Shown: in pieces, positions 9,049 through 55,250 of the stretch
Position numbering within the stretch: position 1 is the stretch's first letter
How the letters are laid out: every line of letters begins with the position of its first letter
Source: Sorghum bicolor
Taxonomy: Eukaryota; Streptophyta; Magnoliopsida; Poales; Poaceae
NCBI RefSeq assembly: GCF_000003195.3
Contig: NC_012876.2
Coordinates: forward strand, 43,694,396-43,758,395
Length of the DNA stretch: 64,000 nt
Direction of reading: 5' to 3'
Notes under the pieces: model-generated
Database searches by the model: none
What the model was told of the DNA's origin: nothing
Seen by the model: the letters and a program-made list of their open reading frames with translations, nothing else
Program-made: the position numbers and the translations under genes

Positions 9049-10769
9049 AAGTGTATTTGTTCTTCTCTAACCTTAAGCATAGTGAGCAAGACAAACTTGA
9101 TGGATGATAAGATCATGAGTGTATCATTTAAAACATTTGTCACTCAACCTTATAGAAAGATAATCTATCTAAGTAAATGTTATATATATATATATCTTCC
9201 AAACATTGAGTGTGCAACATTTTAGCTCATATGATTAGGAGTGTGGGGTCACAAAGGTGGAAGGACTAAACATGTTGAATCGATTTGGTTGGTTAATCTA
9301 GAGTTGTAAATCATACATGTTTGTCTCTTTTATTCATGTGAACGCCAGAACTAAGGAGAAACTTATAAAAAGTGATAGTCAAGCACCTTAAGATGTTACC
9401 TTACTTGAAGAGTGATGGTACAGTATCACCTTGTGGGAGCTTTCCTTTCTTAGCGGTTGTGCATCGTGTTTGTGGCACCCTCCATGGATGATCTCTTGTG
9501 AGCTATGCCTTCCTTGTGTAAATTGTTAACCTTCATGTGTCTCTATCTTTGTCTCCAATGTGAGTTTATCTCAGGACTTCCCAGGTCGATATTGAAAGTT
9601 TTCCTGTAGGGGTTAGTCCAACAAAATATCCAATATCTACTATAGCATACTATCGGCTCAAAAATCAACCTAGACACCATGTCTAATTTGATTTAGGAGG
9701 GAATTTTAACTTAAGCATCATGCTTAATTTAAAATCCCTTGGAAATAAGATCATCATTCCTAAACTAAGCACCATGCTTAATTAAGAGATAAATGAAACT
9801 ACTCCAAACCTAGACATATACTAAAGCAAATAAAGGTAGCATGAGAGCATTTATAGAGATCTACTCAAGTGGAGATGAAGTAGTGTGATTAGTATTTAAC
9901 AAATTGAGCATGTCTCAAAGGTAGGGACAACCAACATAGCAACATGGCAAAAGATGTTTTTATGTAAAGTACTCCCCCAAGCTTGAATTTTGCAAAATTC
10001 AAGTTTGGATGAATTTAATTCAATGTTGCATGATGATTGGTTGGACATACCTTGTTGTTATTCTTCACTCTTTTACTTCAAGCCTGAATCGCGAAGATAA
10101 CGGGATTGCTTCCCCCGAGCTGAATGTTGACATAGTCTTTAATCTTGAATCCGCACAACACAGATGTTCTTCAATATTCTTGAGCTTCAAAATGTCAGTG
10201 ATGATTGCAGCGCTTCCAAGTTGATGAAGATATCTTGATCATTGGGGATTCTCTCTTTAAATCGTGTTAAACTCAAATAGACAACAAAACTTGTGGCACC
10301 GATTAAACATTAGTAGTTGGCCACTTAAGCCTTAGTTGTCCAAGCTTTTTAGAATTTTCTTAATTCTTTTTCTAAGTAGAGTTTCAACAAGATATCTTTC
10401 TCAATATATATATTTTTTAGGGTTTTAATCTTTCTATGAAGCAAAAAGGAAATGGAACATGATGAATGCATGTTTATTTATTTTTATTTTATTTTTTTAT
10501 TCCACCACGGTGAATATGCCTGTGGGCTTTTACACACCACACAATTTATTCACTTGGGGTTCTAGTATTTAAGATGCAATGAGTTATATAAAATATTTTT
10601 ATTATATTTTCTAATGCAATAATAATGCAGAAAGATAAATATGTTATGGAGAAATAAATATGCTAAAAACAAATGCAGAAAAGATAAATACAATAAACCT
10701 ACTAAAGCTAGTGATACATTAAATTAGCAGACATCAAGATCATTATCAAAATCATCACACCAATTGCTT
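9049..10769 (-). other. Non-coding 5' interior of element A
   Basis: It is collinear with 25900-26990 of element B. It carries a perfect 22-base palindrome at about 9981-10002, PPT-like tracts (9972-9984 and 10110-10122), an AT-dinucleotide run near 9183-9195, and no convincing ORF. Confidence 0.75.
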
Positions 10770-10786
10770 CCCTGGAAACGGCGCCA
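10770..10786 (-). promoter_or_regulatory. Primer binding site of element A (tRNA-Asp type)
   Basis: The minus strand reads TGGCGCCGTTTCCAGGG, complementary to the 3' end of plant tRNA-Asp(GTC) at 15 of 17 positions, 8 bases inside the 5' LTR. Confidence 0.85.
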
Positions 10787-10794
10787 AAAATGCT

Positions 10795-12275
10795 TGTTCA
10801 CATTCGTTAAGTGCAATAAGAATAAGAAAAATTCCGCAAGCGCACAGAACATCATCGTAGCAATTTACCGGGAGTATTCCGCGTATCGTTATTTATATTT
10901 TACCACTGGGAAGCTATGGTCAAAGAATCTGATAACTTACTATCATGCATCTACTAATTTAATAAACCAACTAGACTAAAGTAGGGGTAAATAATATATG
11001 ATAGGTAATAATATAAAGGTGAGAATTCTATGATAAATGCGTAGATAGCCATAGCGGGAGAACAACGGGAGAGACCTAGGTTCATGTATACTTCTCTATT
11101 ACTTGAGTTCTATGATAACAAAGAATGAATAGATATAGCAATCACATATTAGCACTTTGGGACATCAGAAGACCAACCATAGAAAGAGAACTGGAAGGGG
11201 GCTGGGAAGCTCTGACTACGGTCCTACAAACACCGATCCGAACGAGGTGGAATACGTCGACCGTTAGGGCTGTCACTACCCTAGGGCTACCACAACAATC
11301 AGCAGGACTGGGTGCAACCTCAAGTAACCTCTAGTATAGACACCACGTCTACACTAACGATTACTACTCTAATTACCATGAATAACTAGATCACTCGATA
11401 CGAACGGAGATCCTATGCCAAAATATAACAACTACACTACTCGATAATAATAAAGGCATAAAATTAAATAGAGAAGATAAATATATTAAAGCATAAGTCT
11501 TACAATAAATATAAAGACATACCAAAACTCTGAAGACTTCTCCAGAACCGAAGCGCAGCTCCGCTCTCCCTATCTCCCGACAAGAACTAATCTACTACAT
11601 TGGAATGTCTAGCCCTAATTCTCTATAGAGGAAAGGTTATCCTTCAAGGGCACTTCTCAACTCTATAATGATGTGTTCTCCTCTAGGGGCCAGGGGCCTT
11701 GCTTATATGGCCTCCTCCTTTGTGCCCTTTTTGGTTCAGCTGGTGATGTGGTACTAAACTTTCCACCATATCTCAATAAAATGCAAATAGGCCTTAATGG
11801 ACCAAAATCTGATTTGGGCCCAATTAATCCCACAGCTCTTTTATGTGGAGTCCTTTTTTTATTAATATCTCTTTATTCCGAACTCCAAATATAGCAAATC
11901 ATATATGCATTTCGATTAGCTCGACGAGATTATTGTAATGGTGTACTCCATTCTGTGATTGGTGCTTGTAGCAGGGCACGCGCCCTAGGATCAAGGGCGG
12001 GCGCCCTGGTCCCAGGCCCGTCTCGGCTCCGCTTCGGTCGAGTTGCTTCTAGGGTCTTCCTGATTATAGAAAATTACCGCACACATTAATTCTCTATGTA
12101 AACCCGACGTGTGGGCCTTTCCTTTGTATTTCCTGATAACCCCCTGCAGAAATAGACAAACACCAAAACTCATGGAAATCTGTCAGATGGAACCCGAAGT
12201 CTAGGTGTCGGTTGCATTTGGATCCTTTTTCATGATTAGTTGACGGTTAAATGTGAGCATTAAGGACCGTCAACA
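10795..12275 (-). repeat. 5' LTR of element A
   Basis: 1481 bases, beginning TGTTCACATTC and ending CCGTCAACA on the plus strand, closely matching 5112-6591. The paired boxes are at 11973-11986 and 11994-12007. Confidence 0.95.
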
Positions 12276-24050: not shown

Positions 24051-25329
24051 TGTTGACGGTCCTTAATGCTCACATTTAACCATCAACTAATCATAGAAAA
24101 GGATCCAAATGCAACCAACACCTAGACTTAGGGTTTTATCTGACAGAATTCCACGAGTTTTGGTGTTTGTCTGTTTCTGCAGGGGGTTATCAGGAAATAC
24201 GAAAGAAAGGCCCACACGTCGGGTTTACATAGAGATATTAACGTGCCGCGCAATTTTCTATCATCTAGAAGACTCCAGAAGCCACGGGACCAAACGGGAG
24301 ACGTAACGGAGCCGGGCACTGGGCGCCCGCCCTCCCTTACTGGGCGCCCGCCCTCCCCCCTGGACCAATCAGGGTGAAGTTCGGGGATCATGCTCCACCG
24401 ACCTAAAGGATCAAGGATAACCGTTCAATCTAAGTCGGTTTGATCCAACGGCCCATATTCACTTGAAGGGACTATAAAACCAGACCCCCCTGGCCCCTGG
24501 AGATCATACCTCTTCTACAGAATCAAAGCTAGGGTTTCAATTCTTCATCCAAGTAGAGAGGATCCCTCTAGTTCTTCTAGTTCTACCTCTAGTTCATCTA
24601 GATCTAGTTCTAGTTCATCTAGTTCTAGTTCTAGTTCCTCTAGTTCTAGTTCTAGTTAGTTCTAGTTGTTATCTAGAAAATAGGGAGAGAGAAGAGGAGA
24701 GCAGAGGAGGAGCCGGATCTGTCGGATCTTCCTCAACATTATACTTTTGCAGCATCTGGTTCGTTCTTCATCGTTCTCCAAGTTCTTCAATTCATAATTC
24801 CTGAGTTCTTTAATTACTTTTATTTACATTCAAGTTATTTATTGGATTCCCGCTTGCATCAAGTGCTCTAGTCTTTATAACGCTAGAGTAGTAATTAATA
24901 GATTAGACGTGGTGTTTAGTCTTGCGATTACCTGGAATTGCACCCAATCCCACGGATTGTTGTGGTAGCCCTAGGGTAGTGACAGCCCTAACGGTCGACG
25001 TATTCCACCACGTTCGGATCGGTGTTTGTAGGACCGTAGTCGGAGCTTCCTAGCCCCTTCTCATCTCTTTCTGTGGTTAGTGTTCTGATGTCCCGATATA
25101 GATAATCTTGAAGTAATTCTTGATTCTTAGATCAACTAGAGAACTCTCAGGAAACTTCCTCTCTTCCCACCAAAAATAATCATATAGTTATCCTTGGGCG
25201 ATCTTGGATCTTAATTAGTACACTCACGTTCTCTGTGGAAAATCGATACTCTGGAATACTCCCGGGTGAAGGCTACATCGGTATCCGTGCGCTTGCGGAT
25301 TTTTCTGTTTGCGTTTAAAGTACCCAACA
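24051..25329 (+). repeat. 5' LTR of element B
   Basis: It has GGGCGCCCGCCCT boxes at 24321-24333 and 24342-24354, a TATA box (ACTATAAAAC) at 24471-24480, and a transcribed minisatellite at 24568-24675. Confidence 0.96.
24568..24675 (+). repeat. CTAGTT minisatellite in the B LTR
   Basis: Imperfect tandem copies of ctagtt and ttctagttc follow the TATA box by about 95 bases, inside the transcribed region. The same array is in the 3' LTR at about 30820-30930. Its role is unknown. Confidence 0.85.
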
Positions 25330-25336
25330 AGCTTTC

Positions 25337-25353
25337 TGGCGCCGTTGCCGGGG
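25337..25353 (+). promoter_or_regulatory. Primer binding site of element B (tRNA-Asp)
   Basis: TGGCGCCGTTGCCGGGG is complementary to the 3' end of plant tRNA-Asp(GTC) at all 17 positions, 7 bases after the LTR. Confidence 0.92.
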
Positions 25354-25448
25354 AAACGGTAGCTGTGCTAGTTTCGAACCAAGTCGTCCGTGTATCCTTT
25401 TTCTTTTCCTTTTTTATCACACTCACCTTACTATTTTCACCATACCAC

Positions 25449-25661
25449 ATGGATTTCACTCTAAGCATTAATGAGCATGGAATTTATTTCATAGCCACTT
25501 CATTTACTCCATGCTCATATGCAACATCTTCACAATCCATTGGTCTCTCCAACATCACCACATTCGAGATCTCCAACCCCCTCTTACTTTCTATTCATAA
25601 AAACTTTAAAAGGGCGGTTGTCGATGCATATGTCTATATTAAATATTGTAGATCTCGTTGA
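25449..25661 (+). CDS. Small ORF at the 5' end of the element B interior
   Basis: 70 codons start at an ATG 95 bases after the primer site (MDFTLSINEHGIYFI...) and end at a TGA. The segment LSNITTFEISNPLLLSIHKNF is reminiscent of the first residues of a grass Athila-type Gag-like ORF, but that is recollection only. No domain can be named. Another in-frame ATG lies upstream at 25266 inside the LTR, but a product of the genomic RNA would start at or after 25449. It may be the truncated start of the lost gag. Confidence 0.4.
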   Translation: MDFTLSINEHGIYFIATSFTPCSYATSSQSIGLSNITTFEISNPLLLSIHKNFKRAVVDAYVYIKYCRSR

Positions 25662-26959
25662 GTTGATCTTGATATAGGTCAGCGTTGGAGGGGAAACCAC
25701 TCGCCGACATAAATTGATGGTTTCCCAAGGACAAGCTTAGCGTCCTAAAATAAGCACTGATAAGATCGTAACATAAGCTTTTAATTATTTGCAACACTAC
25801 CTTGTGTATTGAGCATATAAGGATAATTGTAAAAATAACCCTTCGGGTATTCTTGTCACTAACCTTTGCAGGATTGGAGCAAGAAGATCGGATGAATGAC
25901 AAGCACAAGGTATGTCCAACCAATCATCATACAACATTGAATTAAATTCATCCAAACTTGAATTTTGCAAAATTCTAGCTTGGGGGAGTACTTTACATAA
26001 AAACATCCTTTGCCATGTTGCTATGTTGGTTGTCCCTACCTTTAAGACATGCTCAATTGGTTAAATACTAATCACACTACTTCATCTCCACTTGAGTAGA
26101 TCTCTATAAATGCTCTCATGATACCTTTATTTGCTTTAGTATATGTCTAGGTTTGGAGTAGTTTCATATATCTCTTAATTAAGCATGGTGCTTAGCTAGG
26201 AATGATGATCTTACTTCCAAGGGATTTTAAATTAAGCATGGTGCTTAGGATAAAATGCCCTCCTGAATCAAATTAGACATGGTGTCTAGGTTGATTTTTG
26301 AGCTGATAGTATGCTATAGTAGATATGGGATATTTTGTTGGATTAACCCCTGCAGGAAAACTTTCAATATCGACCTGGGAAGTCCTGAGATAAACTCACA
26401 TTGGAGACAAAGAGAGAGACACATAAAGTTTAACAATTTACACAAGGAAGGCATAGCTCACAAGAGATGATTCATGGAGGGTGCCACAAACACGATGCAC
26501 AACCGCTAAGAAAGGAAAGCCTCCACAAGGTGATACTGTACCATCACTCTTCAAGTAAGGTAACATCTTAAGGTACTTGACTATCACTTCTATAAGCTTT
26601 TCTTTGGTTCTGGCATTCACATGAATAAAAGAGACAAACATGTATGATTTACAACTTTAGATTAATCAACCCAATCGATTCAACATGTTTAGTCTTTCTA
26701 CCTTCGTGGTCCCACACTCCTAATCATATAAGCTAAAACGTTGCACGTTCAATCTTTGGAAGATATAAACAAAACATAAGTATACATAGATTATCTTTCC
26801 ATTAGGTTGAGCGATGTGATCTGACAAATGTTTTAAATATTACACTCATGATCTTATTATCCATTAACTTTGTCTTGCTCACTATGCTTAAGGTTAGAGA
26901 GAACAAATACACTTTTGGTTCTGTCGGTGTGTTCCACCAACAGGGCCCATGCACTTGAT
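25662..26959 (+). other. 5' non-coding interior of element B
   Basis: It is conserved with element A (9049-10000, reversed). It includes an imperfect form of the A palindrome near 25967-25988 and a PPT-like tract (AGCTTGGGGGAGTA, 25978-25991). No ORF is supported. Confidence 0.7.
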
Positions 26960-28176
26960 CTCTGCCTTGTCTCTATGAGCAGGTACACTTCGAGCAAAAT
27001 ATGAAGGAGATTCACAACTCCCAGACTCCACCAAGTGAAGAACTTAGATCTACGAGCATAAACACACTGGAGAGACTAGACACTCAGGCAATCACTGCCC
27101 TGAGATGCTTGAGGACATAACTACTGGAGTAACCCGTGGAAGTAATTACTGACTTTCTGCCGATCAAGAGAGACAATCCAGGACGCCCCGTCATCCCGAT
27201 CTCCATCGGCATGGTGGACTTCCTAGAAGCACTCTGTGACTTTGGCTCCAGCGTCAACATTATGCCCAGGGGAGGCCATTCCTAAATACCTCAGGAGCTG
27301 TCATCTACGCTAGTGCTACCAAGATCAGTTTCTACATCAAGGGGAAGAAGGAGACATTTTCCTTCAAGAAACAAGACTACACAAATCCTAGAGCAATCCC
27401 GACATGAACCAAGGAAGAGGAGCAACAGGAGGAACAAGAACAAGCAAATCTGTACCGAGTCAGCTAAGATAGTCACGGCAGTTCAAGGAGGTCAAGATCG
27501 TCAACTTAAGTCACCGTTCCTGACCAAGAAGGATGACCCCGGTGTTCCAAGCATCGAGTGCACAATCAACGGATATTCTTTTCAGAAGACACTCTACGAC
27601 ATCGGATCTGACGTCAACATAATGGCCACAGTCACTTATCAGCTCCTGCACGGAACCATGCCCCTACAACCAACATACATTCAGCTCGAGATGATTTTAA
27701 GGTTATTGACATGGGAGAAGACGAGTACGTTCCACCCATCATCTTTGGGAGACAGTTCCTCAGCACCGTTAAAACAATCATCTACATTGGAACCGGAGAA
27801 GTCCACATGAACTTCCCCTCTGAGAAGGTACGCCGCCATTTTAATGAACCTTAACTATATAGTTGAAGACTCTAAGCAGGTCAGGACAAGAAGAAGACGA
27901 CGCAACCGCAACCAGAGAAGGCAAATCATCAAGGACGGATGAGCAGACTACGAAGGAGAAGTAGTAAGGTCTGAAGACATACAGCTTGATCAGAACTGTC
28001 CTGAGGAGACCGTAGCACCGAGTCAGGTGTGTAGAGAGAAGATAGTTATACATGAAGAGCAGGCGCTGCCGGAACCACCGACTACGCCATCCAGCGAATC
28101 CCAGGACGACTGAGAAAACGGAGAGTCCCGTTCGGAGGACTTAAAAAAAAACACCGAACGCCTTGCCAAGAGGTAA
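26960..28176 (+). pseudogene. Gag-protease remnant with two protease-like domains, element B
   Basis: After a linker (HFEQNMKEIHNSQ near 27000), the plus strand reads IPISIGMVDFLEALCDFGSSVNIMPR (27190-27270). In another frame follows GRPFLNTSGAVIYASATKISFYIKG, the two ends of one retropepsin-like domain with its middle deleted. A basic linker (SRHEPRKRSNRRNKNK) leads to a second, longer domain: GVPSIECTINGYSFQKTLYDIGSDVNIMA (27543-27630), then after a frameshift GRQFLSTVKTIIYIGTGEVHMNFP. Both keep a D-x-G motif (DFG, DIG). A tail ends at a TAA at 28176. Neither domain is intact. Retropepsins act as dimers, so a tandem pair is notable. Confidence 0.75.
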
Positions 28177-30290
28177 ACTTGGTAGTTATCCTTTTTCCCT
28201 TTCAATTATTTAAAATAGTTTGCTTAGTTAATCAGGTTCATATCATCTTAAAAAAAATAATAAAAAAAATGTTAAAAATAGTAAACCCCACGTGAGTATG
28301 CTCATGGCATAAAACCCATAAGTACATTCACTGTGGTGGCATAAAAATAAAATAAATATATTCCTGTCCTATAAAAATGAAAATATAAAAATAAATTTAT
28401 GATCCTACTAAAGAGAGTAACATTTATTGAGGAGGCTCAACATGATAAAGGCTAGGTATTTACGCTAACCCTTAACCAGTTCCACAAAGCTTTGTTGTCT
28501 ATTTGAGCTTCACAGAATTCAAGAATCAAAGAAGACTAGCAGACGGAGGACATCCTAATCACTGTCAGGGTGCTGCTGACATTCAAATACACCTCCACCA
28601 CCTGCTAGCTACATCAGAAGAAATTACGTCAAAATCCAGCTTGGGGGAGAGCACCCCCATTTATCCAGCTAAGTATTCTACTCACGTTTATATTTTACTC
28701 AAATAATAAAAAGATGCATAATCATAAAAACCCAAATAAAGATTTTGAGCTTATATATATCTTTGCTTAGTTTGATAAATAAATAAATAAATAAATAAAG
28801 TTTGCTATGAACCCTCATGATAAGCTTTCACATGGAAATGATGAATAGTTGCTCTGCCATGACTAGTTCTAAAAATTGAAATCTCTCTCAAGTTTAGGCA
28901 TGACTGTTATTAATTAAGATTTGCTCTAAACCTGAACTTGTGGGGAGAGTACTTGATCTAAAGTCTAAGTCGTTAACGGATACGATATGGGAAGGTTGAG
29001 CTGCTGTTTATCTGTTCCTAGAGATGCTAGAATTCTGGAGAATTTTATCTTTGAAAATCTTTAAATTGTTGCATGATGAGTTCCTGTATGATGAGAGTTT
29101 AAATTCCTACCACAGCCATATATACATGCCTGCTAGACTATGAACCACACATTTACTTTACTACTTATGAGCATTGAGTGTGGTCAAGCTGTGTAGACCC
29201 TTAGGAGCTTGTCATGTGGTTAAAATCAAGATTCACTTGCACGTTGACTCATACATGCTACTTCTACTCCGGAAGTACCATCCACATATATCCATCCATT
29301 TCCATCTCCAGAACCACCCAAAAATATTCTACCCCTAATCCGGGAGAGAATAGCCAAAAACATTCTCCTATTTCTGTTATTTCCCGTGAAATAAATGCTC
29401 AAGTTATCTTGGTTACTACCACTTGCTATATTATTTCAAGAGATGAATGCTCTAAAAAAAAAGAAGAAAAAAATACGAGGAAATAAAAAGGGGCAAGTGC
29501 CCGGAACCTCAAAAGAAAAAAAAGTGAGACGAGAGGTAAAAATGGACAAGTGTCCGACAGTAGAATTAGGGGTACAAGATACCCACCTGAGAGAAAAAAA
29601 TATATATATAGAGCATCTCATTCTCCTCAAAAAGTTTCAAAAGAGCAAGGAAGGTATGTATCCCCTCAAAAGAGCATAAGTAGAATTCGACTTTCACCAT
29701 TGTTATCACCATCATCACCATACACCATTCATTTGCCACACATGCACATCTTGATTTGACTTATTGACTTGTTCTTCTGGATCCATGGTTTGACTATGCA
29801 ATAAATGTCTTCTAAGTATGTATTAGTTGTCTCCCACCTATGAGCTCCAGATATCAAAAGCCTTATTAGAGTAGGGTGAGAGAGAAGGCAATGCCACTAT
29901 GCCTTATACCACAAATACCACATACTTTTAGAGAAGGCATACACCATTAATGCCTTGGTAAGGATCCAGAAATACCACAAAAGAGAGACTAGAGAGAGTC
30001 ATACAAAGAATCTCTGAGTTTTATTTGAAAATCTGCAAAAACTCCAGAGCTATAGTTAATCGAAGAACAAGAGACATGGCGCTTGACTAGACCGTTCTAT
30101 CTTTTAACTGCTTAAGACACAAGTGACGGTTGCAAGCCCCATGGTGGAAGGTAAAATGAGTAAGTTTAAATCTTAACAGTTACCCTAACCCAGAGATGAG
30201 ATCTTGTTTAAATGCATGTGCATTTTTAAGGCATGAAACCACTGCAGAAACTTTTGAGTCTATCTTTGCTCAGGGACGAGCAAAGGTTAT
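28177..30290 (+). other. 3' non-coding interior of element B
   Basis: About 2.1 kb collinear with 6607-8600 of element A. It contains a PPT-like tract (28638-28650), the short-hairpin module (29491-29584) and the pre-PPT hairpin (30264-30285). Short open frames here show no family. Confidence 0.8.
29491..29584 (+). other. Short-hairpin module, element B copy
   Basis: GGGCAAGTGCCC (29491-29502), GGACAAGTGTCC (29544-29555) and GGGTACAAGATACCC (29570-29584) are in the same order as in elements A, C and D. Confidence 0.7.
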
Positions 30291-30303
30291 GCTTGGGGGA
30301 GCT
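30291..30303 (+). promoter_or_regulatory. Polypurine tract of element B
   Basis: GCTTGGGGGAGCT lies directly before the 3' LTR, preceded by the hairpin CTTTGCTC-AGGGAC-GAGCAAAG (30264-30285). Confidence 0.88.
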
Positions 30304-31583
30304 TGTTGACGGTCCTTAATGCTCACATTTAACCATCAACTAATCATAGAAAAGGATCCAAATACAACCAACACCTAGACTTAGGGTTTTATCTGACAGA
30401 ATTCCACGAGTTTTGGTGTTTGTCTGTTTCTGCAGGGGGTTATCAGGAAATACGAAATAAAGGCCCACACATCGGGTTTACATAGAGATATTAACGTGCC
30501 GCGCAATTTTCTATCATCTAGAAGACTCCAGAAGCAACGGGACCGAACGGGAGACGTAACGGAGCCGAGCACTGGGCACCCACCCTCCCTTACTAGGCGC
30601 CCGCCCTCCCCCCTGGACCAATCAGGGTGAAGTTCGGGGATCATGCTCCACCGACCTAAAGGATCAAGGATAACCGTTCAATCTAAGTCGGTTTGATCCA
30701 ACAGCCCATATTCACTTGAAGGGACTATAAAACCAGACCCCCCTGGCCCCTGGAGATCATACCTCTTCTACAGAATCAAAACTAGGGTTTCAATTCTTCA
30801 TCCAAGTAGAGAGGATCCCTCTAGTTCTTCTAGTTCTACCTCTAGTTCATCTAGATCTAGTTCTAGTTCATCTAGTTCTAGTTCTAGTTCCTCTAGTTCT
30901 AGTTCTAGTTAGTTCTAGTTGTAATCTAGAAAATAGGGAGAGAGAAGAGGAGAGCAGAGGAGGAGCCGGATCTGTCGGATCTTCCTCAACATTATACTTT
31001 TGCAGCATCTGGTTCGTTCTTCATCGTTCTCCAGGTTCTTCAATTCATATTTCCTGAGTTCTTTAATTACTTTTATTTACATTCAAGTTATTTATTGGAT
31101 TCCCGCTTGCATCAAGTGCTCTAGTCTTTATAACGCTAGAGTAGTAATTAATAGATTAGACGTGGTGTTTAGTCTTGCGATTACCTAGAATTGCACCCAA
31201 TCCCACGGATTGTTGTGGTAGCCCTAGGGTAGTGACAGCCCTAACGGTCGACGTATTCCACCACGTTCGGATCGGTGTTTGTAGGACCGTAGTCGGAGCT
31301 TCCTAGCCCCCTTCTCATCTCTTTCTGTGGTTAGTGTTCTGATGTCCCGATATAGATAATCTTGAAGTAATTCTTGATTCTTAGATCAACTAGAGAACTC
31401 TCAGGAAACTTCCTCTCTTCCCACCAAAAATAATCATATAGTTATCCTTGGGCGATCTTGGATCTTAATTAGTACACTCACGTTCTCTGTGGAAAATCGA
31501 TACTCTGGAATACTCCCGGGTGAAGGCTACATCGGTATCCGTGCGCTTGCGGATTTTTCTGTTTGCGTTTAAAGTACCCAACA
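30304..31583 (+). repeat. 3' LTR of element B
   Basis: 1280 bases, nearly identical to 24051-25329. Paired boxes are at 30574-30586 and 30595-30607, again 21 bases apart although both have point changes. Confidence 0.96.
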
Positions 31584-32189
31584 ACCTCCTACCTCGTGGT
31601 CGTGCTGCCTTGGAGGAAGATCTAGAATAGGGAGACAATAATCATCGTCTGAGTTGTCTGAAGCAAAATCAATCTCCTCCCGAGCCTCAGCGTCTGCAAC
31701 TGCCCCAATAGCTGTGTCCTGCTCCTCCTTTGTCTCTGGGACTGCCCCTGAACTGCGGGTAGCCCTAGGTCAAGGTGGTGGCACCCAGCCACTTGGTGTT
31801 GGAGGAGGAGGTGGAGCTCGAAGATCATGGTGCGCTCTCAGCATCTGTCGGGTGTCGTAGTGCGGAAACACCGTTTCAGCGTCTGTCAACTCTCTCTGAA
31901 GGTGAGCTAGAAGGAGCTGTGGCCTAGCATGAAGAATAAGCAGCGTGATCCAATGTGCGTACGGCAGCTGACAGCGACTGCTAAAGCCCTCTCTAACCGT
32001 GTCCTCTATCTCAGACACTATCAAGTCTCACAAGTCAAACAGCCTCTGAGCGATCAGGTGAGCTATGAGCCACTGCTGAATCCTAGTGAACCCATCTCTA
32101 TAGCCTGGCCTAGGGAGAAGTGTCTTCCTCATGACAAAGTCACGAATCCTAGCTGGGCATTTCAGATCACCCACTGTCCTGCCGGAGCC
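31584..32189 (-). pseudogene. C2 env-like ORF, middle part
   Basis: The minus strand reads RIRDFVMRKTLLPRPGYRDGFTRIQQWLIAHLIAQRLFDL, a stop, then SEIEDTVREGFSSRCQLPYAHWITLLIL and a proline-rich stretch (RAPPPPPTPSGWVPP). It links the N-terminal part at 41390-42425, across element C, to the C-terminal part at 24050, across element B. The folded-looking middle has no domain I can name. One TGA or TAG at about 32028 and frame changes near the ends show decay. Confidence 0.65.
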
Positions 32190-33397
32190 TGTTGATATTT
32201 GGTAACGCAATCAGAATTAATCCACAAGCACACGGATATCGGTGAGCACTTCACCTGGGATGTTATCCAGAGTATCGTATTTATATTTTTACCACTAGGA
32301 GAAAGCGTGCATCTGACCAACCCTGTCGATTACTACTAACCTTTAGGCTACAAACTATGTGACTCGATGTGAGTGATGTATAGAGAAGACTACAACCGCA
32401 CTCTCGTTCTAACCTTGGTATGGATGATCTACTGTTCTGTTGGGGAGGCTCACGGAATCTAGAAACCACAGAGGATGTTCGAGCCGCACCTATAAACCCT
32501 ATCGATCCTACTAACGGGATATAGGCTACAAAGGTAACTCGGAAATGTCACGTTCCTCGCTACTACCACGGTCCAGCTAGTCAGGGGATATCTGTGAGTA
32601 TCCTAGCCCAAACACCACATTTATGCTAGAGATGATTACTCTAAACTCTACGCGAAGAGATCAAAGTAAACTCATCAACCAAAGAACAATAAAACAAAGA
32701 ACTTACTAGAATTTAGAAGTCGAAACACTGAAGAATCCTAGGAGCAAGCCTTGGGTTAGGAGACTTGATCCCGCAGGTACAACCTCGGAGTAGACACCGA
32801 CAGGTCGGGCTTCCTCCAATCTACACCTCCACTCTATCTCTCTCAATCTAGTAGAACTAGACTACTCTCACATTGGATGCTACACCCTATGAGGTGGGAA
32901 CCCTAAGGAACCTCTCTCTCTGAATCCTCTCTGTAAAATATGCTAATGAATAATTGGATTCTCCCCTCCAAGGGCCAGGGGGCCTTGCTTATATTGTCTT
33001 TTCAAATGAATCTGGGCCGTCAGATCAAACCGACATTGATTGAACGGTTCTCCTTGATCCTTTAGGTCGGTGGAGCATAATCCGCGAGACTCGTGCTGAG
33101 CGCCCAAGGGGGGGAGGGCGGGCGCCCTGCCCCCAGGCCCGATCGGCCTCCCGTTCGTTCCCATGGCTTCTAGACTCTTCTAGATGATAGAAAATTGCGC
33201 GGCACGTTAATATCTCTATGTAAACCCGACATTAGGGCCTTTCTTCTATATTTCCTGATAACCACCTGCAGAAATAGATAAACAACAAAACTCATGGAAT
33301 TCTGTCAGATCAAACCCTAATTCTAGGTGTTGTTTGTATGTTGGTCCTTTCCCTTGTTTATTTCATAATTAAAATTGATACTTAAGAACTGTCAACA
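32190..33397 (-). repeat. 3' LTR of element C
   Basis: The minus-strand start is at 33397. The GC-rich box is at 33115-33128, with a worn second copy 21 bases away (33094-33107). Confidence 0.96.
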
Positions 33398-33410
33398 AAT
33401 ACCCCCATAC
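33398..33410 (-). promoter_or_regulatory. Polypurine tract of element C
   Basis: The minus strand reads GTATGGGGGTATT directly before the 3' LTR. A hairpin (33416-33438) precedes it. Confidence 0.85.
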
Positions 33411-34712
33411 TTAGGCTTTTACTCGTCCTCGAGAAAAGGATGGTTAAGAAAAATATCTAGGGTTAAAACATTGTAAAGCATTCTCTTCATACTTGCAGGT
33501 TGTTGTAAAAATCCACTGTGTACCGTAGTTAGGGAAATATATGGTCAAGAGTAGAGGTCCTTTCTTCTTAATCCTGTCACTTGGAGTTTTTGTATATTTT
33601 TTGAAAAGAAATTTATCATACCTTTATCCTCATAGGTTCTCAGGTCACTCATTATCTTTTATATATCTCACTGAGGCTGTTTTAATTTGCAAAAAATTCA
33701 CAAGCATACTTACCTTGCATTTATTGCCTGATCAAAACAGGATCCGAGGAGAGGAATGCCATACTCTTAGATCAAAGACTTTGGAAATTAAAAACTTGTC
33801 AACTCTTACTGGCATATTGCTTATTAGAGGGACCATGGGCTATCATTTTCTTCTTTCTTTTCTCTCCTTCTTTTTTTTTCAGGTGGATACCGAGGTACCC
33901 CTAATTCTACTGCTAGACACTTGTCCATTTTTTCTCCGAGGTTGTCGAGCACTTGCTCCTTTTTATTTCCTCAAAATATTCATATTTTTGCATAGCCCAT
34001 GCCTCTAAAGCAATAATACTTCAGCAGAGTGAATCTTTCTGAATAAATGTCTTGATCTTAGAAGTATGATAAATCTCTCAACAAGGGTCTAACTCGTTTC
34101 GAACAAACTCAATACAGAGTAGATAGCTTTTATAATTGTCATAATTAATATTTTTAGGTTTAGTAAGCATATAAAACACTGAGGATGGTGGCTAGAATTT
34201 TTTGAAGATTTTGAAATAAATTCTCCAAGCAACAATGATATCAAGAATAAGATACTCATACTCTACCATCTCATATTCCACAGTGACTTAAGCAGCACAG
34301 GGTTTTTGAAATGATTTTTCAATAATTGGAAGTTTTTAGGAAATATCACAGAATGAGATTGATCATGATTAGAAACATTTTAATCTTGTTAATTTATCAT
34401 GTCGGAGACAATATTCTGCATGAACCAAGATATATGTGTATGTGTAAAGTGTGCAGAGTATGTACCTGAATCGTGGAGTGGTGTAGTCGAAGTGCATTTG
34501 GTGTGTCGAGGGATCTCCCCCATACTTGTTTTCTGCTTTCTTGCATAAAAGTAAAGTAGAGACACACAAGACATAATAATAATAATAATCTTTATTAATC
34601 TTGAGGCATTTATTACAAATGACTAGTAATGAACTGAAGCTAATAATAGATCTAAACTGAATTTAAAGATAAATAACTATGATGCACTGCCTCAAGATCT
34701 AATCTAGATAAC
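33411..34712 (-). other. 3' non-coding region of element C
   Basis: About 1.3 kb between the extra ORF and the polypurine tract, AT-rich, with the pre-PPT hairpin and the short-hairpin module (33885-33958). Open frames on the plus strand (around 33541-34008) read hydrophobic low-complexity peptides without a family. Confidence 0.75.
33885..33958 (-). other. Short-hairpin module, element C copy
   Basis: Plus-strand inverted repeats are GGATACCGAGGTACCC (33885-33900), AGACACTTGTCC (33915-33926) and GAGCACTTGCTC (33947-33958). The last differs from the GGGCACTTGCCC of element A at two paired positions, keeping the stem. Confidence 0.7.
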
Positions 34713-35339
34713 TTAGCGGCGCTCTAACTCCCTGATCTTCTTATTTGCACTAGCGAGATCATGCCTAAGACCTAGGATAACGGTGTTCTGGTTAGAGAGC
34801 TGCCTAGTGATAGAGTTAACCGAGAACTGGAGCTCTATGATGACCTTGTCTAGCCTACGAACGTCCTCATCAATATCTACTATAGTCTTGCGGCGCTTAG
34901 GGGGTGTCTCAAGAGCGTTGAGAGCGTGCTTCGGGGCTGCCTTTGGAGGGATGAAACAGACTTTGGCTGCTCTAATTCCCTCGAAGTAAGGCCTCTCCTC
35001 CGTAGTGTAGCGGATGCTGCTGATCTCGCCGCTCCGGTTGGTCTTGACTCCAACGACCCGCTCATTAGGCCAGGGTGGCAGGATCCTCGTGCCGGCTGGC
35101 ACCTTGACGGTGGGCTCCTTCTTGGCTAATGGTCCCTTGAGAAGTAGGGGCTGCGGTGCTGCGGTGAGAACTAGTTGAGCATGGTAGGATTGGGTGGAGC
35201 TGCGCTGGCGTGATGGCATGGCTGCTAACTGTCGCTCTGTGTTGGCCAGGACGAGAGCGTAGGCGTCGGGGTCTTCCTTGGGCTTCTTGTTGAGGTCGAA
35301 GGGGACGACTTCCCAATCATCGTGGAACTCTTCGGCCAT
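34713..35339 (-). CDS. Extra 3' ORF of element C (unknown function, coiled coil)
   Basis: This is an intact 208-codon ORF, unlike the broken pol before it. The N-terminus is acidic (MAEEFHDDWEVVPFDLNKKP). The middle is proline- and basic-rich (ILPPWPNERVVGVKTN). A basic PPKRRK at about residue 143 could be a nuclear localisation signal, and the last 55 residues form heptads (VRRLDKVIIELQFSVNSI) typical of a coiled coil. No transmembrane segment or signal peptide is seen, so it is not obviously an envelope protein despite its position after integrase. It has its own TATA box about 90 bases upstream. No named family fits; it could be a structural or RNA-binding accessory protein. Confidence 0.7.
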   Translation of the reverse strand: MAEEFHDDWEVVPFDLNKKPKEDPDAYALVLANTERQLAAMPSRQRSSTQSYHAQLVLTAAPQPLLLKGPLAKKEPTVKVPAGTRILPPWPNERVVGVKTNRSGEISSIRYTTEERPYFEGIRAAKVCFIPPKAAPKHALNALETPPKRRKTIVDIDEDVRRLDKVIIELQFSVNSITRQLSNQNTVILGLRHDLASANKKIRELERR

Positions 35340-35423
35340 TGGGTTAGCGAGGATCTAAGCAAGCTCTAATAGAATGAGAGAAGGCTTGAATAAATTGGTG
35401 TTGAAAACTGACGTCAGGGGTCT

Positions 35424-35654
35424 GTTTATATAGGGGTCAAAAAGTGCCTCTAGGGTTTGCTCGGGCTACTCCCGCCGCCATGCGTGTGAAACCTTCCATC
35501 TGTATGATTATTTAGTTTACCATAAATGAGTTTATTGTGACGGAGGAAATCGGGACTGAGAGGAGACAGGGGCTGGGCGCCCGCCCTCTTCATCAGGGCG
35601 CCCGCTTTGTGCCTGGCCCCGTTGTGGGCCCGCTTCCTCGAGCATGCTTCTAGA
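35424..35654 (-). promoter_or_regulatory. LTR-like promoter block before the extra ORF of element C
   Basis: On the minus strand the block begins TCTAGAAGCATGCTCGAGG and contains AAGCGG and GGGCC. It then has two GC-rich boxes at 35596-35605 and 35575-35587 (21 bases apart) and a TATA box CTATATAAAC at 35433-35424, 85 bases before the ATG. The LTR of element A runs TCTAGAAGCAACTCGACC, AAGCGG, GGGCC and the same two boxes in the same order. A palindromic TGACGTCA at 35409-35416 lies just after the TATA box. Promoter function is inference. Confidence 0.65.
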
Positions 35655-35805
35655 TGCAGACTTTATTCAAAAAATATATACTTGGCCCAAAAACGTTAGA
35701 TTAAAAAGGTTGGGCTCTAATTCTCCATGGGAAGGTAGAAATAGATCACGTCTATCTCTTCTAATTCTTTATTGGGCTCTAAAAATAATTTAAGACGTTG
35801 ACCAT

Positions 35806-37086
35806 TTACCTTGAATAACGTACCTTCGTTATTTTGAAGTGTGATTGCTCCGTGGGAGATGAATTGATTACTTTGAATGGTCCTTCCCATTTACTCTGGA
35901 GTTTTTCATGCCCGAAAAGCTTTACACTGGAATTAAAAAGTAATACCTTATCTACGGGTGCAAACTCCTTCATCGTGATCCTCTTGTCATGCCACCTTTT
36001 GACTCTTTCTTTGTAGATTTTCGAGTTGTGATATGCTTTCTCTCGCCATTCTTCCAATTTTGATAGTTGCATCCTTCTATGATCTCCAGCGACATCTAGG
36101 TCCATATTCCATCTCCTTATGGCCCAGTGTGCTTTGAATTCTAGTTCAACAGGTAGGTGGCAAGTCTTCCCGTACACCAATTGGTATGGGGACATTCCAA
36201 GTGGGGTCTTGTATGCTGTCCGGTATGCCCAGAGTGCATCAGGTAACTTGTCCTTCCATGCCGTTCCCATCTCATTGACTGTTTTCTAAAGAATATTCTT
36301 GATTTTCTTGTTGGAAGTCTCCGCTTGGCCACTTGTGTGAGGATGGTAGGGAGTAGCGATGTTGTGACGGATTCCATGTTTCGACAGATAGTGTTTGAAG
36401 CATTTGTCGATGAAGTGTGCTCCTCCATCACTTATCACTACTCTGGGAACTCCAAATCTTGGAAATATAATTTCTTCAAACATCCTCTTTGAACTGATGT
36501 TGTCAGCGTGTTTGCAAGGTAGTGCCTCTACCCACTTGGAGACGTAGTCAACTGCCACCAAGATGAACTCACACCTCTTTGATGGGGGAAATGGACCCAT
36601 GTAATCTATTCCCCAGACATCAAAGAGCACAATCTGTAGGTTGTTGGTGAGTGGTATGGCGTCCCTTGTATTTATGTTTCCGTGCCTTTGACATGGCCCA
36701 CATCTTCTGATATATTGCTTCGTGTCTTCATACATTGTAGGCCAGTAGAATCCACACTACCAGATCTTTGAATGTGTATGGAATGCTCTGTAATGACCTC
36801 CATATGGTGATGAATGACATCTGTCAATGATCTTCCATCCTTCCTCGATGGTCACACATCTTCTGAGTAAGCCATCAGAGCATACTCGGAAGAGGTATGG
36901 CTCATCCCATATATGTGAACGACTTTCTTGAATAAGCTTCTTCTTGTTCGCTCCTGGTGGTACATACCCTGAAACCATAAAACTAACAATATCTGCATAC
37001 CAGGGGTCAGACCTGTTAATCCCGTAGAGCATGTCGTCCCGGAGTGAATCATTGATGGGGGTTTCCTGTGGATTCTTAAAATACAT
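35806..37086 (-). pseudogene. Integrase of element C
   Basis: Minus-strand order: zinc-binding HHCC (HSSPYGGHYRAFHTHSKIW ... RRCGPCQRHG), then the catalytic core with FDVWGIDYMGPFP (first D), VVISDGGAHF (second D) and HPHTSGQAETSNK (E), then [11 protein letters not shown] and a C-terminal DNA-binding part ([12 protein letters not shown]). All three catalytic acids are present. Stops at 37087-37089, 36757-36759 and 36286-36288 interrupt it, each one transition or transversion from a sense codon. It would splice element cDNA into chromosomes. It directly follows RNase H in the Ty3 order. Confidence 0.92.
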
Positions 37087-38544
37087 TCAAGACAAGTGAT
37101 CAGCAACAGAATTTTCTACTCCCTTTTTATCTTTTATCTCTAAGTCAAATTCTTGAAGTAATAAGATCTATCTAATCAGGTGAGGTTTAGCATCTTTTTT
37201 AGTGAGAAGATATTTTAGTGCAGCATGATCAGTGTAAACAATTATTTTAGCTCCAACTAAATAAGATCAAAATTTATCAATGGCAAAGACAACGGCAAGA
37301 ACCTCTTTTTTAGTGGTTGCATAATTAAGTTGAGCTCCTGTCAAAGTTTCGCTAGCATAAGCAATTGCATGATGCTTCTTATTTTTAGTTTGTCCCAAAA
37401 CTTCCCCCACAGCATAATCACTAGCATCACACATAATTTCAAAAGGCAACGACCAATCAGGGGGTTGAATGATTGGTGTAGAGATGAGTGCATTCTTTAA
37501 TAAATTGAAAGATGTTAGGCATGCATCATCAAATTCGAAAGGAGCATCCTTGGCTAGCAAAAGAGTAAGTGGTCTAGCAATGAATGAAAAATCTTTTATG
37601 AATCTGCGATAAAAACCAGCATGGCCAAGAAAGCTTCGAATTCCTTTTATATTCACGGGTGGCGGTAGTTGTTCAAGTACTTCAATTTTAGCTTTGTCTA
37701 CCTCAATACCTCTTTCAGACACTAGGTGTCCCAGCACTATTCCTTCTCTAACCATAAAATGACATTTTTCCCAATTAAGGACAAAGTGCTTTTCTGCACA
37801 TATTTGCAAAACCTTGTCTAAGTTTTCAAGACAACTATCAAAAGTTTTTCCATATACAGAGAAATCATCCATAAAAAATTCCATAATCTCTTCAATCATA
37901 TCAGAAAATATAGACATCATGCATCTTTGAAAACAAGCTGGTGCATTACATAACCTAAAAGACATTCTACGGTAAGCATAAGTTTCGTATGGGCATGTAA
38001 ACATGGTTTTGCTTTGATCATCGGGATGGATCGGGATCTGGTGATACCCTGAATATCCATCTAAGAAACAGAAGAACGAATGGTTCGCTAATCGCTCTAG
38101 CATCTCATCTATGAAAGGTAAAGGAAAATGATCTTTTTTCGTGGCTTTGTTCCGTTTTCTATAGTCTATGCACATCCGCCACCCTGTGACGGTGCGTTGC
38201 GGAATTAGCTCGTTCTTTTGATTCGTAACGACAGTCATGCCTCCCTTTTTAGGCACAACTTGAACTGGGCTCACCCACTCAGTGTGCGGCACAGGATATA
38301 TAATCCCTGCATGTAGCAACTTTATAACTTCCTATTTAACTACCTCTCTCATCGCGTTGTTTAGTCTACGTTGGGGCTCTCGAGAAGGTGAAATAGAAGG
38401 ATCTATCGGAATACGATGGGTACAAATCATAGGACTGATTCCTATAAGATCTTGGAGTGAGTAGCCAAAAACTGAGTGATGTTTCTCAAGAATGGTCATT
38501 AACCGCAGAGTTTGCTCTTGAGTGAGTTTATTACTAATGATCAC
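37087..38544 (-). pseudogene. Reverse transcriptase and RNase H of element C
   Basis: Motifs include RTVTGWRMCIDYRKRNKATKKDHFPLPFIDEMLERLANH, FCFLDGYSGYHQIPI, RMSFRLCNAPACFQRC and the catalytic FMDDFSVYG, followed by the RNase H with FEIMCDASDYAVGEVLGQ and YATTKKEVLAVVFAI. The VTNQKNELIPQRTVTGWR signature and FMDD box are typical of the Athila lineage. Stops lie at 38332-38334, 37267-37269 and 37168-37170. The frame upstream (38545-38700) continues in another frame, so a frameshift lies near 38710. It copies element RNA to DNA. Confidence 0.94.
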
Positions 38545-38699
38545 AGGAAACTCTGGATTATTGTTTAGGAAAGCATAAATAAGACCGGGTGGTAAAGTTT
38601 TAAGTTCTATGGGAGGTCTAGGTGTTTCTACAAACTCATCTAAGGGTTCAGGTTCAGAAGGTTCAGCTTCTTCTTCTATAAAGAAAGGAGCTTCTTCTT

Positions 38700-39605
38700 C
38701 TAAGTCTGGTTCATCAAAAGCTCTAGAGATGCAGCCTTTACCTCCTCCATAGGATCGGGCAAAAGATATGACTCGGTCTTATTATTTAAGGACTGAGAAA
38801 TCATTATTGTAAATTTGAAAGCATTTCCAAAAGAAATGTGTAGCTTTCCAGTATGACCTTCATAAAGGAGTCTTCTAAAAGGTTGTCCTATCAATAGGTC
38901 AAAGTCCCATGTATCAAAGATATAAAAGTTCAAATGAACCATGGAGCCTTCTACCATCAACGGTAGGACATTAATAATTCCAAGACTAGGGACCAATCGT
39001 CCCGAAGATTCCTTTATGACCTTTGTTATGGGGGTTAAGACCAAATTTTTAAATAATTTAAGTGCAAAAGATTTAGACATGATGTTGATCCCCACAACAG
39101 GATTATAGAGAGCATCAAATTGATCAGAATCATAAGCACAGCGTATAGTTATAGTAGGTGTGTCCAAACGAATCACATCAGAGGAAAGCTCTGACTCCTC
39201 CAACCATTCGCTACTCATGACTGCGATAAGCTCTCTCAATTGATGTTTAGTTGGCAAACAAATGCTAAAATGGCCGTTTTGGGGTTTGTCTATAGAATGG
39301 TAGTTTGAAATGTTTACAAAATCGGCAAAAAGATCAGATTCTATATCCAGCATGAAATCAGGTGGTGGAATTTCTTCCTTTTGTGGCTCAGAACTTGGGA
39401 TAGCTAAAGTAGATGGAGAATTTGGTAGAGTGTCTACTTCGGCTTCGTGGGTTTCATCATGAAGGGTATTATCCATCTCAGCTTCTAGGACTCTATCTAG
39501 GATCACTCTAGCGTTATCAGTAGGGATGCGAAAGAAAGAACCACTAGACATTGTATGTAGCATTTGTTTATGATCTTTATGCGAAAGAAAGAACAGGGTG
39601 TTCAA
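38700..39605 (-). pseudogene. Protease-like domain of element C
   Basis: 301 codons. The C-terminal half (about residues 150-265) reads IRCAYDSDQFDALYNPVVGINIMSKSF, later FYIFDTWDFDLLIGQPFRRLL, which is the retropepsin fold. At the catalytic turn, where Athila-type proteases read D-x-G (DLGASVSVMP in element D here), this protein has NPVVG and no aspartate. I recall similar NP-VG forms in other grass proteins, so it may be a lineage feature and not damage. It overlaps the end of gag by 29 bases in another frame and is followed by a frameshift before RT. Confidence 0.8.
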
Positions 39606-40219: not shown

Positions 40220-41389
40220 TGTTGATATTTGGTAACGCAATCAGAATTAATCCGCAAGCGCACGGATATCGGTGAGCACTTCACTCGGGATGTTATCTAG
40301 AGTATCGTAGTTATATTTTTACCACTAGGAGAAAGCATGCATTTGACTAACCTGGTCTATTACTACTAACCTTTAGGCTACAAACTATGTGATTCGATGT
40401 GAGTGATGTATAGAGAATACTACAACCACACTCTCGTTCTAACCTTGGTAAGGATAATCTACTGTTCTGTTGGGGAGGCTCACGGAATCTAGACACCACA
40501 GAGGATGTTCGACCCGCACCTATAAACCCTATCGATCCTACTAATGGGATATGGGCTACAAAGGTAACTCGAAAATGTCATGTTCCTCGCTACTACCACG
40601 GTCCAGCTAGTCAGGGGATATCTATGAGTATCCTAGTCCAAACACCACGTTTACGCTAGAGATGATTACTCTAAACTCTACGCGAAGAGATCAAAGTAAA
40701 CTCATAAACCAAAGAACAATAAAACAAAGAGCTTACTAGAATTTAGAAGTCGAAATACTGAAGAATCCTAGGAGCAAGCCTCGAGTTATGAGAGTTGATC
40801 CAGCAGGTACAACCTCGGAGTAGACACCGACAGGCCGGGCTTCCTCCGATCTACACCTCCACTCTATCTCTCTCAATCTTGTAGAACTAGTCTACTCTCA
40901 CATTGGATGCTACGCCCTATGAGGTGGGAACCCTAAGGAACCTCTCTCTCTGAATCCTCTCTGGAAAATATGCTAATGAATAATTGGATTCTCCCCTCCA
41001 GGGGCCAGGGGGCCTTGCTTATATATTCTTTTCAAATGAATCTAGGCCGTCAGATCAAACCGACATTGATTGAACGGTTCTCCTTGATCCTTTAGGTCGG
41101 TGGAGCATAATCTGCGAGACTCGTGCTGATTGGCCAGCAGAGGAGGGCGGGCGCCTAAGGGGGGAGGGCGGGCACCCTGATAGAAAATTGCGCGGCACGT
41201 TAATATCTCTATGTAAACCTGACATGTGGGCCTTTCTTCCATATTTCCCGATAACCCCTACAGAAATAGATAAACAACAAAACTCGTGGAATTCTGTCTG
41301 ATCAAACCCTAATTCTTGGTGTTGTTTGTATGTTGGTCCTTTCCCTTGTTTATTTCATAATTAAAATTGGTACTTAAGAACCGTCAACA
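40220..41389 (-). repeat. 5' LTR of element C
   Basis: 1170 bases. Compared with the left copy it lacks about 60 bases just past the GC boxes, yet keeps two boxes at 41144-41156 and 41165-41178. A minus-strand TATA (ATATATAAGC) is near 41017-41026. Confidence 0.95.
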
Positions 41390-42425
41390 GAGCCCTCACC
41401 AAAAGGCTAACGAAAACACAGCGCAAAAAAGTCAACAGGGGGAAGTGCACCGACGTAGGTCGTCGAGGGGGCTCAAAGTTGCCACAGCACAACTGGTGAA
41501 TCGTGGTGTCAGAAGCCGTCAGCCCCAAAACCTCTTTGGCCCTCTGAGCTATCACCCTATAATCTGTGCCTGCCAGTGTGTAGTGGATATAGCGATGGCC
41601 TGGCAAAGCAAGCAGACTTGGGAGACCTGGTAGGTAAGTGAAGTACTGTCTGATATCTGCACCTACCATGTTTCCTAGTACCTCAAGGTCTAGCACCCTA
41701 TGCTCCCTGAACTAAGTCTTAGCATGAACAAATGCCTGGTACATGTCGTCCTGAACCACCGTGTAGAATCTGGAATGAGCCCTCTGATCCCGGGCTGCTG
41801 GGAACCAGGTGGGGAAAGGAGCAAACCTCAACTTTTGAATCTCACGTGTAGGGTCCTGGGTGTAGCCCTTATGTATCCTGGCAGGAGCTGGATGTGGAGC
41901 TGGAGTACCACATGCCGGTGTGGAGCGAGCAGACAAGGTGGACTGACCCTGCGTACCAGTCCTGGAGGCAGCCTAGGTACGAGTGCGAGTCGACCTGCAA
42001 AGGGGCTGCTCCTCCTGCTGAGCCTATGTCGGGCCCTCTGCCTAGGCCTCTGCCTCTGTCTCCTTCTGTGCTGACTCAGTGACGTCAATCCATACACGCT
42101 GACCCCCTAGCATGATGGTGCCAAGAGGGGTCCCGTGTCGTGCCTCAACCTCAAGCACTGCACACCTCTGAGCTTTCGAGAGATCTAACCCAATCCTCAG
42201 TGCTCCTAAGTGGCCACCCCTCTCTGCTGCCTCAGCTGCTGCTGCCACTGCCTCTACCACCTCATCAGCCTCTCTGTCATTGGCCTTCCTCTTCTTTGTA
42301 GCTAGCTTCTTTCCTTTACCCTTCTCTACAACTGACAGGCGGCGGGGAGGATCACCACCACCGTCACCTCCTGGAGAGCCACCACTGCTAGCTGTTGGAC
42401 CACTGATGTTTTTGCACCGTGCCAT
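41390..42425 (-). pseudogene. C2 env-like ORF, N-terminal part
   Basis: The ORF opens at 42425 (MARCKNISGPTASSGG). It is glycine-rich, then strongly basic (KGKGKKLATKKRKANDRE, a likely nuclear localisation signal), then alanine/glutamate helical (ADEVVEAVAAAAEAAERGG). Further on are FAPFPTWFPAARDQRAHSRF and VLGNMVGADIRQYFTYLPGL before the element C insertion at 41389. Stops at 42042 and 41712 interrupt it. Position after RT-RNase H matches the env-like gene of SIRE elements (family knowledge). A nuclear signal and no signal peptide argue against a membrane envelope role. Confidence 0.7.
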
Positions 42426-53793: not shown

Positions 53794-55250
53794 ACACTTT
53801 GCTCGTCCCTGAGCAAACAGCTAAACTCAGATGGATCAGGAGTTGCTTCGATGTTTTCTTTCCTGACAGGCACACATGCTTTTCATATAAAAATTCTTCC
53901 AGATTAGAGTGAAGTCTTAAGTAATCGAAAGACAAAATAATTATGTCAAGCACTATTCCTTCTGTCTATACTTCACCTTTGTTCCGAAGTTTTGCATAAG
54001 TTTTCAAAAATAAAGCTCAGAGTTCCTAGCTATGATCCTCTCAAGTCTCTCTATATGTGGTATTTGTGGATCCTTACAAAGATGTCACCTACCTATAGCT
54101 AATGGAATATTTAAGTGGAGCTTATAGCAGTGAAAAACAGCTCATACATATGTTGTCTAATTGAGCCATGGATCCAAAGGAACTCAGCATATAATTAAAT
54201 CAAGATGTGCATGTGTGGTGGAGTAAATGATAGTAATGGTGGAAATATAAGTAATGATAAAACTTACTTCTCATTGCTCCTCATATTGCTATCTCTCCTC
54301 CTCTTTGATCTTTGCATTGGGAGAACATGGGCTATCTTTTTCTTTTCTCTTTTTCTCAGGTGGGTAGTTGATACCCCTAATTCTACTGTCGGACACTTGT
54401 CCATTTTTTCCGATCAAGTGGGCATCTTTGTACCCCTAATTCTACTCCGGACACTTGTCCATTTTTACCTCTCGTCTCACTCTTTTTTCTTTCTTTTTTC
54501 AAGGTTCCAGGCACTCGCCCCTTTTTATTTCCTAGCATATTTTTGCATAACCCATGCCTCTTCTGCATTGAATCCTTTTGGTGAGAGAGAATAACAACAC
54601 TGGGGACAGTGCGTGATAATATTTTTAGGAATTTTAATGAATGGTGGTGGATGGTGTAGTAGATGTGTGCAAGTGAATATCTTAATCTAACCACATGAAA
54701 AGCTCCTAAGGGTCTACACGACTCGATCAAACTCAGTGTGAATATAAGTTGCAAAAGATGTTATAGCAAGTATGGCTGTGGTAGGAAGTTTGTCATGCTA
54801 GGAACTCATCATGTGATTTGCAAGTTTTCAAAATAAATCTCCAGAACTTAGTGTAGTAGGAACAAGATAAACAGTAGCTCAAACTTTATATCATGTCTTT
54901 CTCTTACTTAGACTTTAGTTTTAGGTTCATGCTTCCCATAGATAGTAAATTTTAATTTTAGTAATTCTTGGAAGAACTCTAATATAAAACCTAGGTACTT
55001 GAAAGTAAGCAAACAGAGCAACTGTTCATCATTTCCATCATGCATCTTTTTGGTCTTTTATTTTTTTTCTAGAGATTAACACTTAGCAGGTAAAATAAAT
55101 CATACTTATCTACACACTCTTTTTATTTTGTTTTCATGTTTATAAAATGCAGTAAAATAAAGCAAGAAAATATTTATTGAATTTTCTAAGTTTTTCTCTT
55201 TAAATAAAACACTAAACAGAAAAGAATAAATAAGAAAAGCAAATAAAAAC
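53794..55250 (-). other. 3' non-coding region of element D
   Basis: AT-rich, with no ORF I can support. It contains the pre-PPT hairpin, the duplicated short-hairpin module (54362-54520), and sequence matching the A and B interiors near 54650-54760. Confidence 0.75.
54362..54520 (-). other. Short-hairpin module, element D copy (partly duplicated)
   Basis: Plus-strand inverted repeats are GGGTAGTTGATACCC (54362-54376), GGACACTTGTCC (54391-54402), then GGGCATCTTTGTACCC (54420-54435) and GGACACTTGTCC again (54449-54460), then GGCACTCGCCC (54510-54520). Two of the three units are doubled. Confidence 0.7.

Follow-up and report, generated by a model that had tools for sequence, protein, structure and literature searches.

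Element C, one of the LTR elements nested in the 64-kb window (the whole stretch of DNA analysed here), carries an accessory open reading frame (aORF) of 208 codons between pol and its 3′ LTR, preceded by a short module that resembles the U3 of LTRs in the same group. We hold it about evenly balanced whether this is a sense accessory gene with a promoter of its own, one that would share the module with the U3s and be co-regulated with the LTRs. By sequence comparison the U3-like module is genuine for element A and for LTR B5, and weaker for the other LTRs, including those of C itself. The likeness appears to be confined to ~82 bp, which supports a short module but not the capture of an entire U3.

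Element C and Its Setting

Element C lies on the minus strand, with its 5′ LTR at 40220–41389 (termini TGTTGAC...CAACA) and its 3′ LTR at 32190–33397, the two paired by BLAST. The same five bases, GAGCC, flank the element at its 5′ end (41390–41394) and at its 3′ end (32185–32189); paired LTRs and a 5-bp target duplication, as in Ty3/gypsy elements, are thus both present. The LTRs agree at 1,104 of 1,173 aligned sites (94.1%; 69 differences and 10 gap events), a divergence of ~3% per copy. What remains of gag-pro and pol (35717–39605, minus strand) is interrupted by stops and frame changes, with open pieces in three frames, and the last pol frame stops at 35717–35719. A 350-aa piece (37267–38319) matches the Pfam domains RVT_1 and RNase H; the presumed integrase piece (35806–36270) has no Pfam match, and the order reverse transcriptase (RT)–RNase H–integrase rests on our reading of the frames. 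From its motifs we take C to be of the Athila lineage, and its pol motifs presumably set it apart from the lineage of Retand. The RT piece found no relatives among the viral contigs.

A polypurine tract, AAGTATGGGGG, adjoins the 3′ LTR (33402–33412, minus strand), and a second polypurine-tract-like copy of AAGTATGGGGG lies at 34517–34527 on the same strand, 1.1 kb upstream of the first. At equal base use, ~0.03 occurrences of this 11-mer are expected per window.

Gene-Like Anatomy of the Accessory ORF

The aORF (34713–35339, minus strand) is intronless, encodes a basic KRRK motif and a C-terminal leucine zipper, and lies between pol and the 3′ LTR on the strand of pol, which makes it a sense accessory ORF. 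The preliminary description proposed that it is transcribed from a separate promoter, and the anatomy is consistent with this. The motif CTATATAAAC is found at 35433–35424 (minus strand) and the ATG at 35339, as described. A candidate TATA box, CTATATAAA, was identified there by sequence match (35425–35433, minus strand), the 94 nt from TATA to ATG hold no upstream ATG, and polyadenylation-like signals (TTGTAA and two AATAAA, at 34614 and 34596) follow behind the stop codon (34591–34618, minus strand). The pattern CTATATAAR occurs at three sites in the window against 1.2 expected, one of them being the TATA of LTR A3. Directly below the TATA box lies a palindrome, TGACGTCA (35409–35416, minus strand), which occurs three times in the window against 0.64 expected.

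Base composition changes over the same region. The aORF has a GC content of 0.55 and a GC3 of 0.65, compared with GC3 values of 0.33, 0.35 and 0.46 for three gag-pol pieces, and 200-bp bins over 34820–35619 have GC contents of 0.52–0.61 where most neighbours have 0.30–0.45. Over 34800–35650, that is, both GC and GC3 jump sharply across the accessory gene and its candidate promoter relative to the rest of C. This break, which fits a separate promoter as well, suggests that the accessory gene has had its own history or been under its own constraint. We looked for repeats at the ends of the cassette or in its flanks, as a sign of separate insertion, and found none that were convincing. The aORF has no match of note in the other elements of the window (a single chance-level match, E 2.7), and neither it nor the block upstream has relatives among the viral contigs or the bacterial and archaeal genomes.

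Retroviral env is expressed by splicing of the genomic RNA, and so are env-like ORFs in some plant elements. The genomic RNA upstream of the aORF contains 121 ATGs, so scanning from the 5′ LTR would not get to the aORF unless splicing intervenes. That the aORF is expressed from the 5′ LTR in this way, its TATA-like and GC-rich parts being incidental, seems to us rather unlikely. The AG dinucleotides at 35366 and 35364, between TATA and ATG, follow a pyrimidine-rich stretch (15 of 20) and could plausibly serve as a 3′ splice site, and splicing is reported for barley Bagy2 (PMC7264820). However, splicing needs neither a suitably spaced TATA box, nor an ATG-free leader, nor AATAAA directly behind the ORF. 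These favour transcription from an internal promoter. The survival of an intact aORF beside a broken pol, which had also been put forward as a sign of separate use, turns out to be a weak argument. In simulations at the divergence of the C LTRs, 60% of neutral ORFs of this size acquire no stop, and the probability of escaping both stops and indels is ~0.04–0.13 when each indel is counted as fatal.

A Short U3-Like Module Upstream of the Accessory ORF

The block before the aORF had been described as a repeat of the LTR promoter layout. Starting at 35654 and reading along the minus strand, one indeed finds TCTAGAAGCA, CTCGA, AAGCGG and GGGCC in the order claimed, and the two GC-rich boxes (GGGCGCCCG, plus-strand positions 35575 and 35596) are spaced 21 bp apart, as they are in LTRs A3 (6290, 6311) and B5 (24321, 24342). 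Counting its complement, the 12-mer box is found eight times in the 64 kb; seven of these lie in LTR copies or an LTR-like piece, and the eighth is in the block. What survives of the claimed layout is a short module at 35654–35572 (minus strand), consisting of TCTAGAAGC, a spacer and the two boxes, which matches the LTRs of element A without gaps; the rest of the block and the orientation of the boxes do not follow the LTRs.

We compared the block with six LTRs (A3, A5, B5, B3, C3 and C5), using as a null 300 dinucleotide shuffles for each, and as a window control 342 segments (171 non-LTR segments on both strands). The best ungapped matches were 48 of 80 identical positions with A3 (35654–35575 against 6369–6290), 50 of 82 with A5 (35653–35572 against 12052–11971) and 37 of 55 with B5 (35623–35569 against 24305–24359), none of them equalled in 300 shuffles. 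For B3, C3 and C5, 86, 27 and 281 of 300 shuffles did as well, so that the alignment is better than shuffled sequence for three of the LTRs and not clearly so for the other three. In the window control, the number of the 342 segments reaching the score was two for A3, zero for A5 and one for B5, compared with 97, 48 and 305 for B3, C3 and C5. The LTRs of C itself are the worst matches to the block. MAFFT aligns the block in register with the U3s of five LTRs, the module being free of gaps except in C3; in the 5′ LTR of C the spacer is largely missing.

When the boxes are omitted and the register is fixed on TCTAGAAGC, 26–28 of 47 columns agree in A3, A5, B5, B3 and C3 (0–5 of 20,000 shuffles). 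With the nine anchor bases omitted as well, 17–20 of 38 columns agree in the five LTRs (72–859 of 20,000 shuffles), and the middle of the module alone is therefore a signal modestly above chance. It could be argued that the likeness is one of chance, between two GC-rich stretches with binding sites that are common in promoters of the host genome. Only A3, A5 and B5 stand out, the middle part is modest, and in a gapped test of the box-free part one other, unrelated locus of the window scores equally high (four overlapping windows of 8,888). Set against this are the absence of any equal among 300 shuffles for three LTRs and a box that, within the window, is restricted to the LTR group and the block, with the same 21-bp spacing in each; we find the chance explanation very improbable.

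The preliminary description had further suggested that the aORF is driven by a captured copy of U3, which is borne out for the ~82 bp that take in the two boxes and not for the remainder, which down to the ATG matches no LTR. The colinear match ends at 35569–35575 and does not run through the TATA region. The segments 35424–35570, 35340–35440 and 35655–35720 have no clear match to any of the six full LTRs; the lowest shuffle counts among these 18 comparisons, 15–21 of 300 with B5 and B3, are unremarkable for 18 tests. It is on this absence of matches outside the module that we base its ~82-bp extent.

The boxes themselves run the other way. In element orientation the box reads GGGCGCCCGCCC in the LTRs and GGGCGGGCGCCC, its reverse complement, in the block; block and LTRs have in common a palindromic core, GGGCGCCC, and the 21-bp spacing, with the pair in the block (35575–35605, minus strand) reversed relative to the LTR boxes. 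Gapped local alignments score higher in the opposite than in the same sense for A3 (40 versus 32), B5 (42 versus 27) and C3 (35 versus 22), and also favour the opposite sense for B3, C5 and the right-edge LTR-like piece; A5 is the exception (31 versus 36). The box-free part, by contrast, prefers the same orientation as the LTRs.

Could a whole U3 have been copied into the 3′ region, for instance through strand transfer during reverse transcription, and have decayed except for one module? The gap-free, colinear run from TCTAGAAGC to the boxes would fit such an event, as would the preferred orientation of the box-free part. Yet the boxes stand in the opposite sense, no match is found over the 140 bp between the module and the TATA box or above 35654, and the best match is element A, not the LTRs of C. 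With its boxes reversed and no U3 likeness beyond the module, the block does not look like a simple copy of an entire U3, an origin that we consider improbable. In the reading that we favour, an internal promoter sharing only a module with the U3s, this module may be a piece of copied U3, or it may have formed around the same set of binding sites.

Other leads to the boxes were pursued. The box-pair pattern matched five viral contigs (L001–L005), and a literature search with the 12-mer box returned a single, unrelated paper on the fly. A reading of TCTAGAAG as a heat-shock element was rejected. Judged by the heat-shock-element consensus, the three-unit pattern GAAnnTTCnnGAA has one mismatch in A3, B5, B3 and C3, two in A5 and three in the block, and with one mismatch or fewer it occurs at 58 sites in the window. 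Being so common here, and with three mismatches in the block, the pattern fails to explain it.

The Predicted Accessory Protein

The predicted product of the aORF belongs to a well-populated group of sequences. A set of 417 candidates yielded 202 relatives at E ≤ 10, of which the best 120 all had E values below 1e-66. Among the same best 120 of 202, full-length relatives are 63%–96% identical, 41 are exactly 209 aa long, and 108 have the loose basic pattern K[RHC][RHC][KR]. A profile search scored 7,996 candidates and found 271 at E ≤ 1, the best 120 being nearly the same set. Conservation was examined in an alignment of 48 sequences (the aORF of the window and 47 chosen relatives), most of which retain the basic residues 148 and 151 and the residues at the heptad positions (I167 in 45 of 48, L170 in 46, L195 in 46, I202 in 45; position 184 is polar). 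The a/d heptad core fraction is 0.87, a value reached in 0 of 5,000 shuffles.

AlphaFold models one helix at residues 153–207, with pLDDT mostly above 90, and gives no confident structure before residue 137 (mean pLDDT 55.0, pTM 0.26); 142 of 208 residues fall below a pLDDT of 50. The Pfam search of the aORF returned no family at the curated cut-off, and a PDB sequence search yielded nothing at the default cut-off beyond two chance-level matches. By eye, the sequence has no long hydrophobic run. A nuclear role for the protein would be our tentative assignment.

Comparison with Known Systems

Env-like ORFs, such as those of Athila and Bagy2, differ from the aORF in that its best-modelled part is predicted to be a long coil and not a membrane protein; the aORF also differs from the sense accessory ORFs of these elements in having a promoter-like region and no Pfam family at the curated cut-off. 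Closer in layout is gene23 of maize Grande, which PMC7264820 describes as lying between pol and the 3′ LTR in antisense, with a promoter just upstream, and as encoding a nuclear protein. Like gene23, the aORF occupies a long 3′ internal region and has promoter-like sequence just upstream. Unlike gene23, which is antisense to gag-pol, it is in sense, and its upstream region contains a module common to LTR U3s. Antisense ORFs with a TRP28 domain are presented in PMC11963269 as a conserved 3′ ORF of Retand with a proposed DNA-binding function. These differ from the sense aORF of element C both in strand and in domain. Among the titles and abstract openings that we searched, none described a plant element whose sense accessory gene has an LTR-like promoter, although this is not a claim of absence from print.

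In foamy viruses (PMC517496), a second sense promoter precedes a 3′ accessory gene, and the nuclear product Bel1/Tas binds both this internal promoter and the LTR. The parallel here consists of the module common to block and LTRs and of a protein predicted to have a basic zipper.

A Possible Two-Promoter Arrangement

In the arrangement that we propose, the aORF would most likely be transcribed independently from the internal promoter, with a transcription start and a use of the poly(A) signals that we infer. The shared module, its boxes two helical turns apart, would recruit the same DNA-binding factors to both promoters, which might then fire together. The basic-zipper protein could itself bind the module. 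A full circuit of the foamy-virus kind, in which the internal promoter yields a nuclear basic-zipper protein that binds the 21-bp-spaced boxes in both promoters and through them activates the LTRs of partner elements, A and B among them, is an analogy to which we attach very little probability.

We know of no established function for the accessory ORFs of plant LTR retrotransposons. A module common to an accessory promoter and LTRs suggests a testable role, that of a self-encoded regulator of LTR activity, and such a regulator might also act on related elements that have no polymerase of their own. The arrangement would extend the idea of an own promoter from antisense genes, as in Grande, to sense genes; with a sense accessory gene, the genomic RNA would have to tolerate internal poly(A) signals.

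Neighbouring Elements

The interiors of elements A (6600–10800) and B (25330–30310) are 88%–91% alike. A tblastn search (three queries from C and one from B) found in neither a match to the RT or gag-pro pieces of C, and A and B may be non-autonomous. Both carry the module, and neither yielded an RT akin to that of C, so that their expression and mobilisation might depend on factors supplied in trans.

Close to their 3′ LTRs, A, B, C and D share a segment (7262–7423, 29467–29601, 33853–34006 and 54332–54561) with 68%–92% identity. It can form small hairpins (GGGGCAAGTGCCC, GGACAAGTGTCC, GGGGTAC...), and the four sequences have 18 consensus pairs, one of them with a change on both sides. The segment may be a packaging or RNA-structure signal held in common by elements with and without RT. 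The LTRs of element B contain 21-bp tandem repeats of the CTAGTT type (24544–24678 and 30797–30931).
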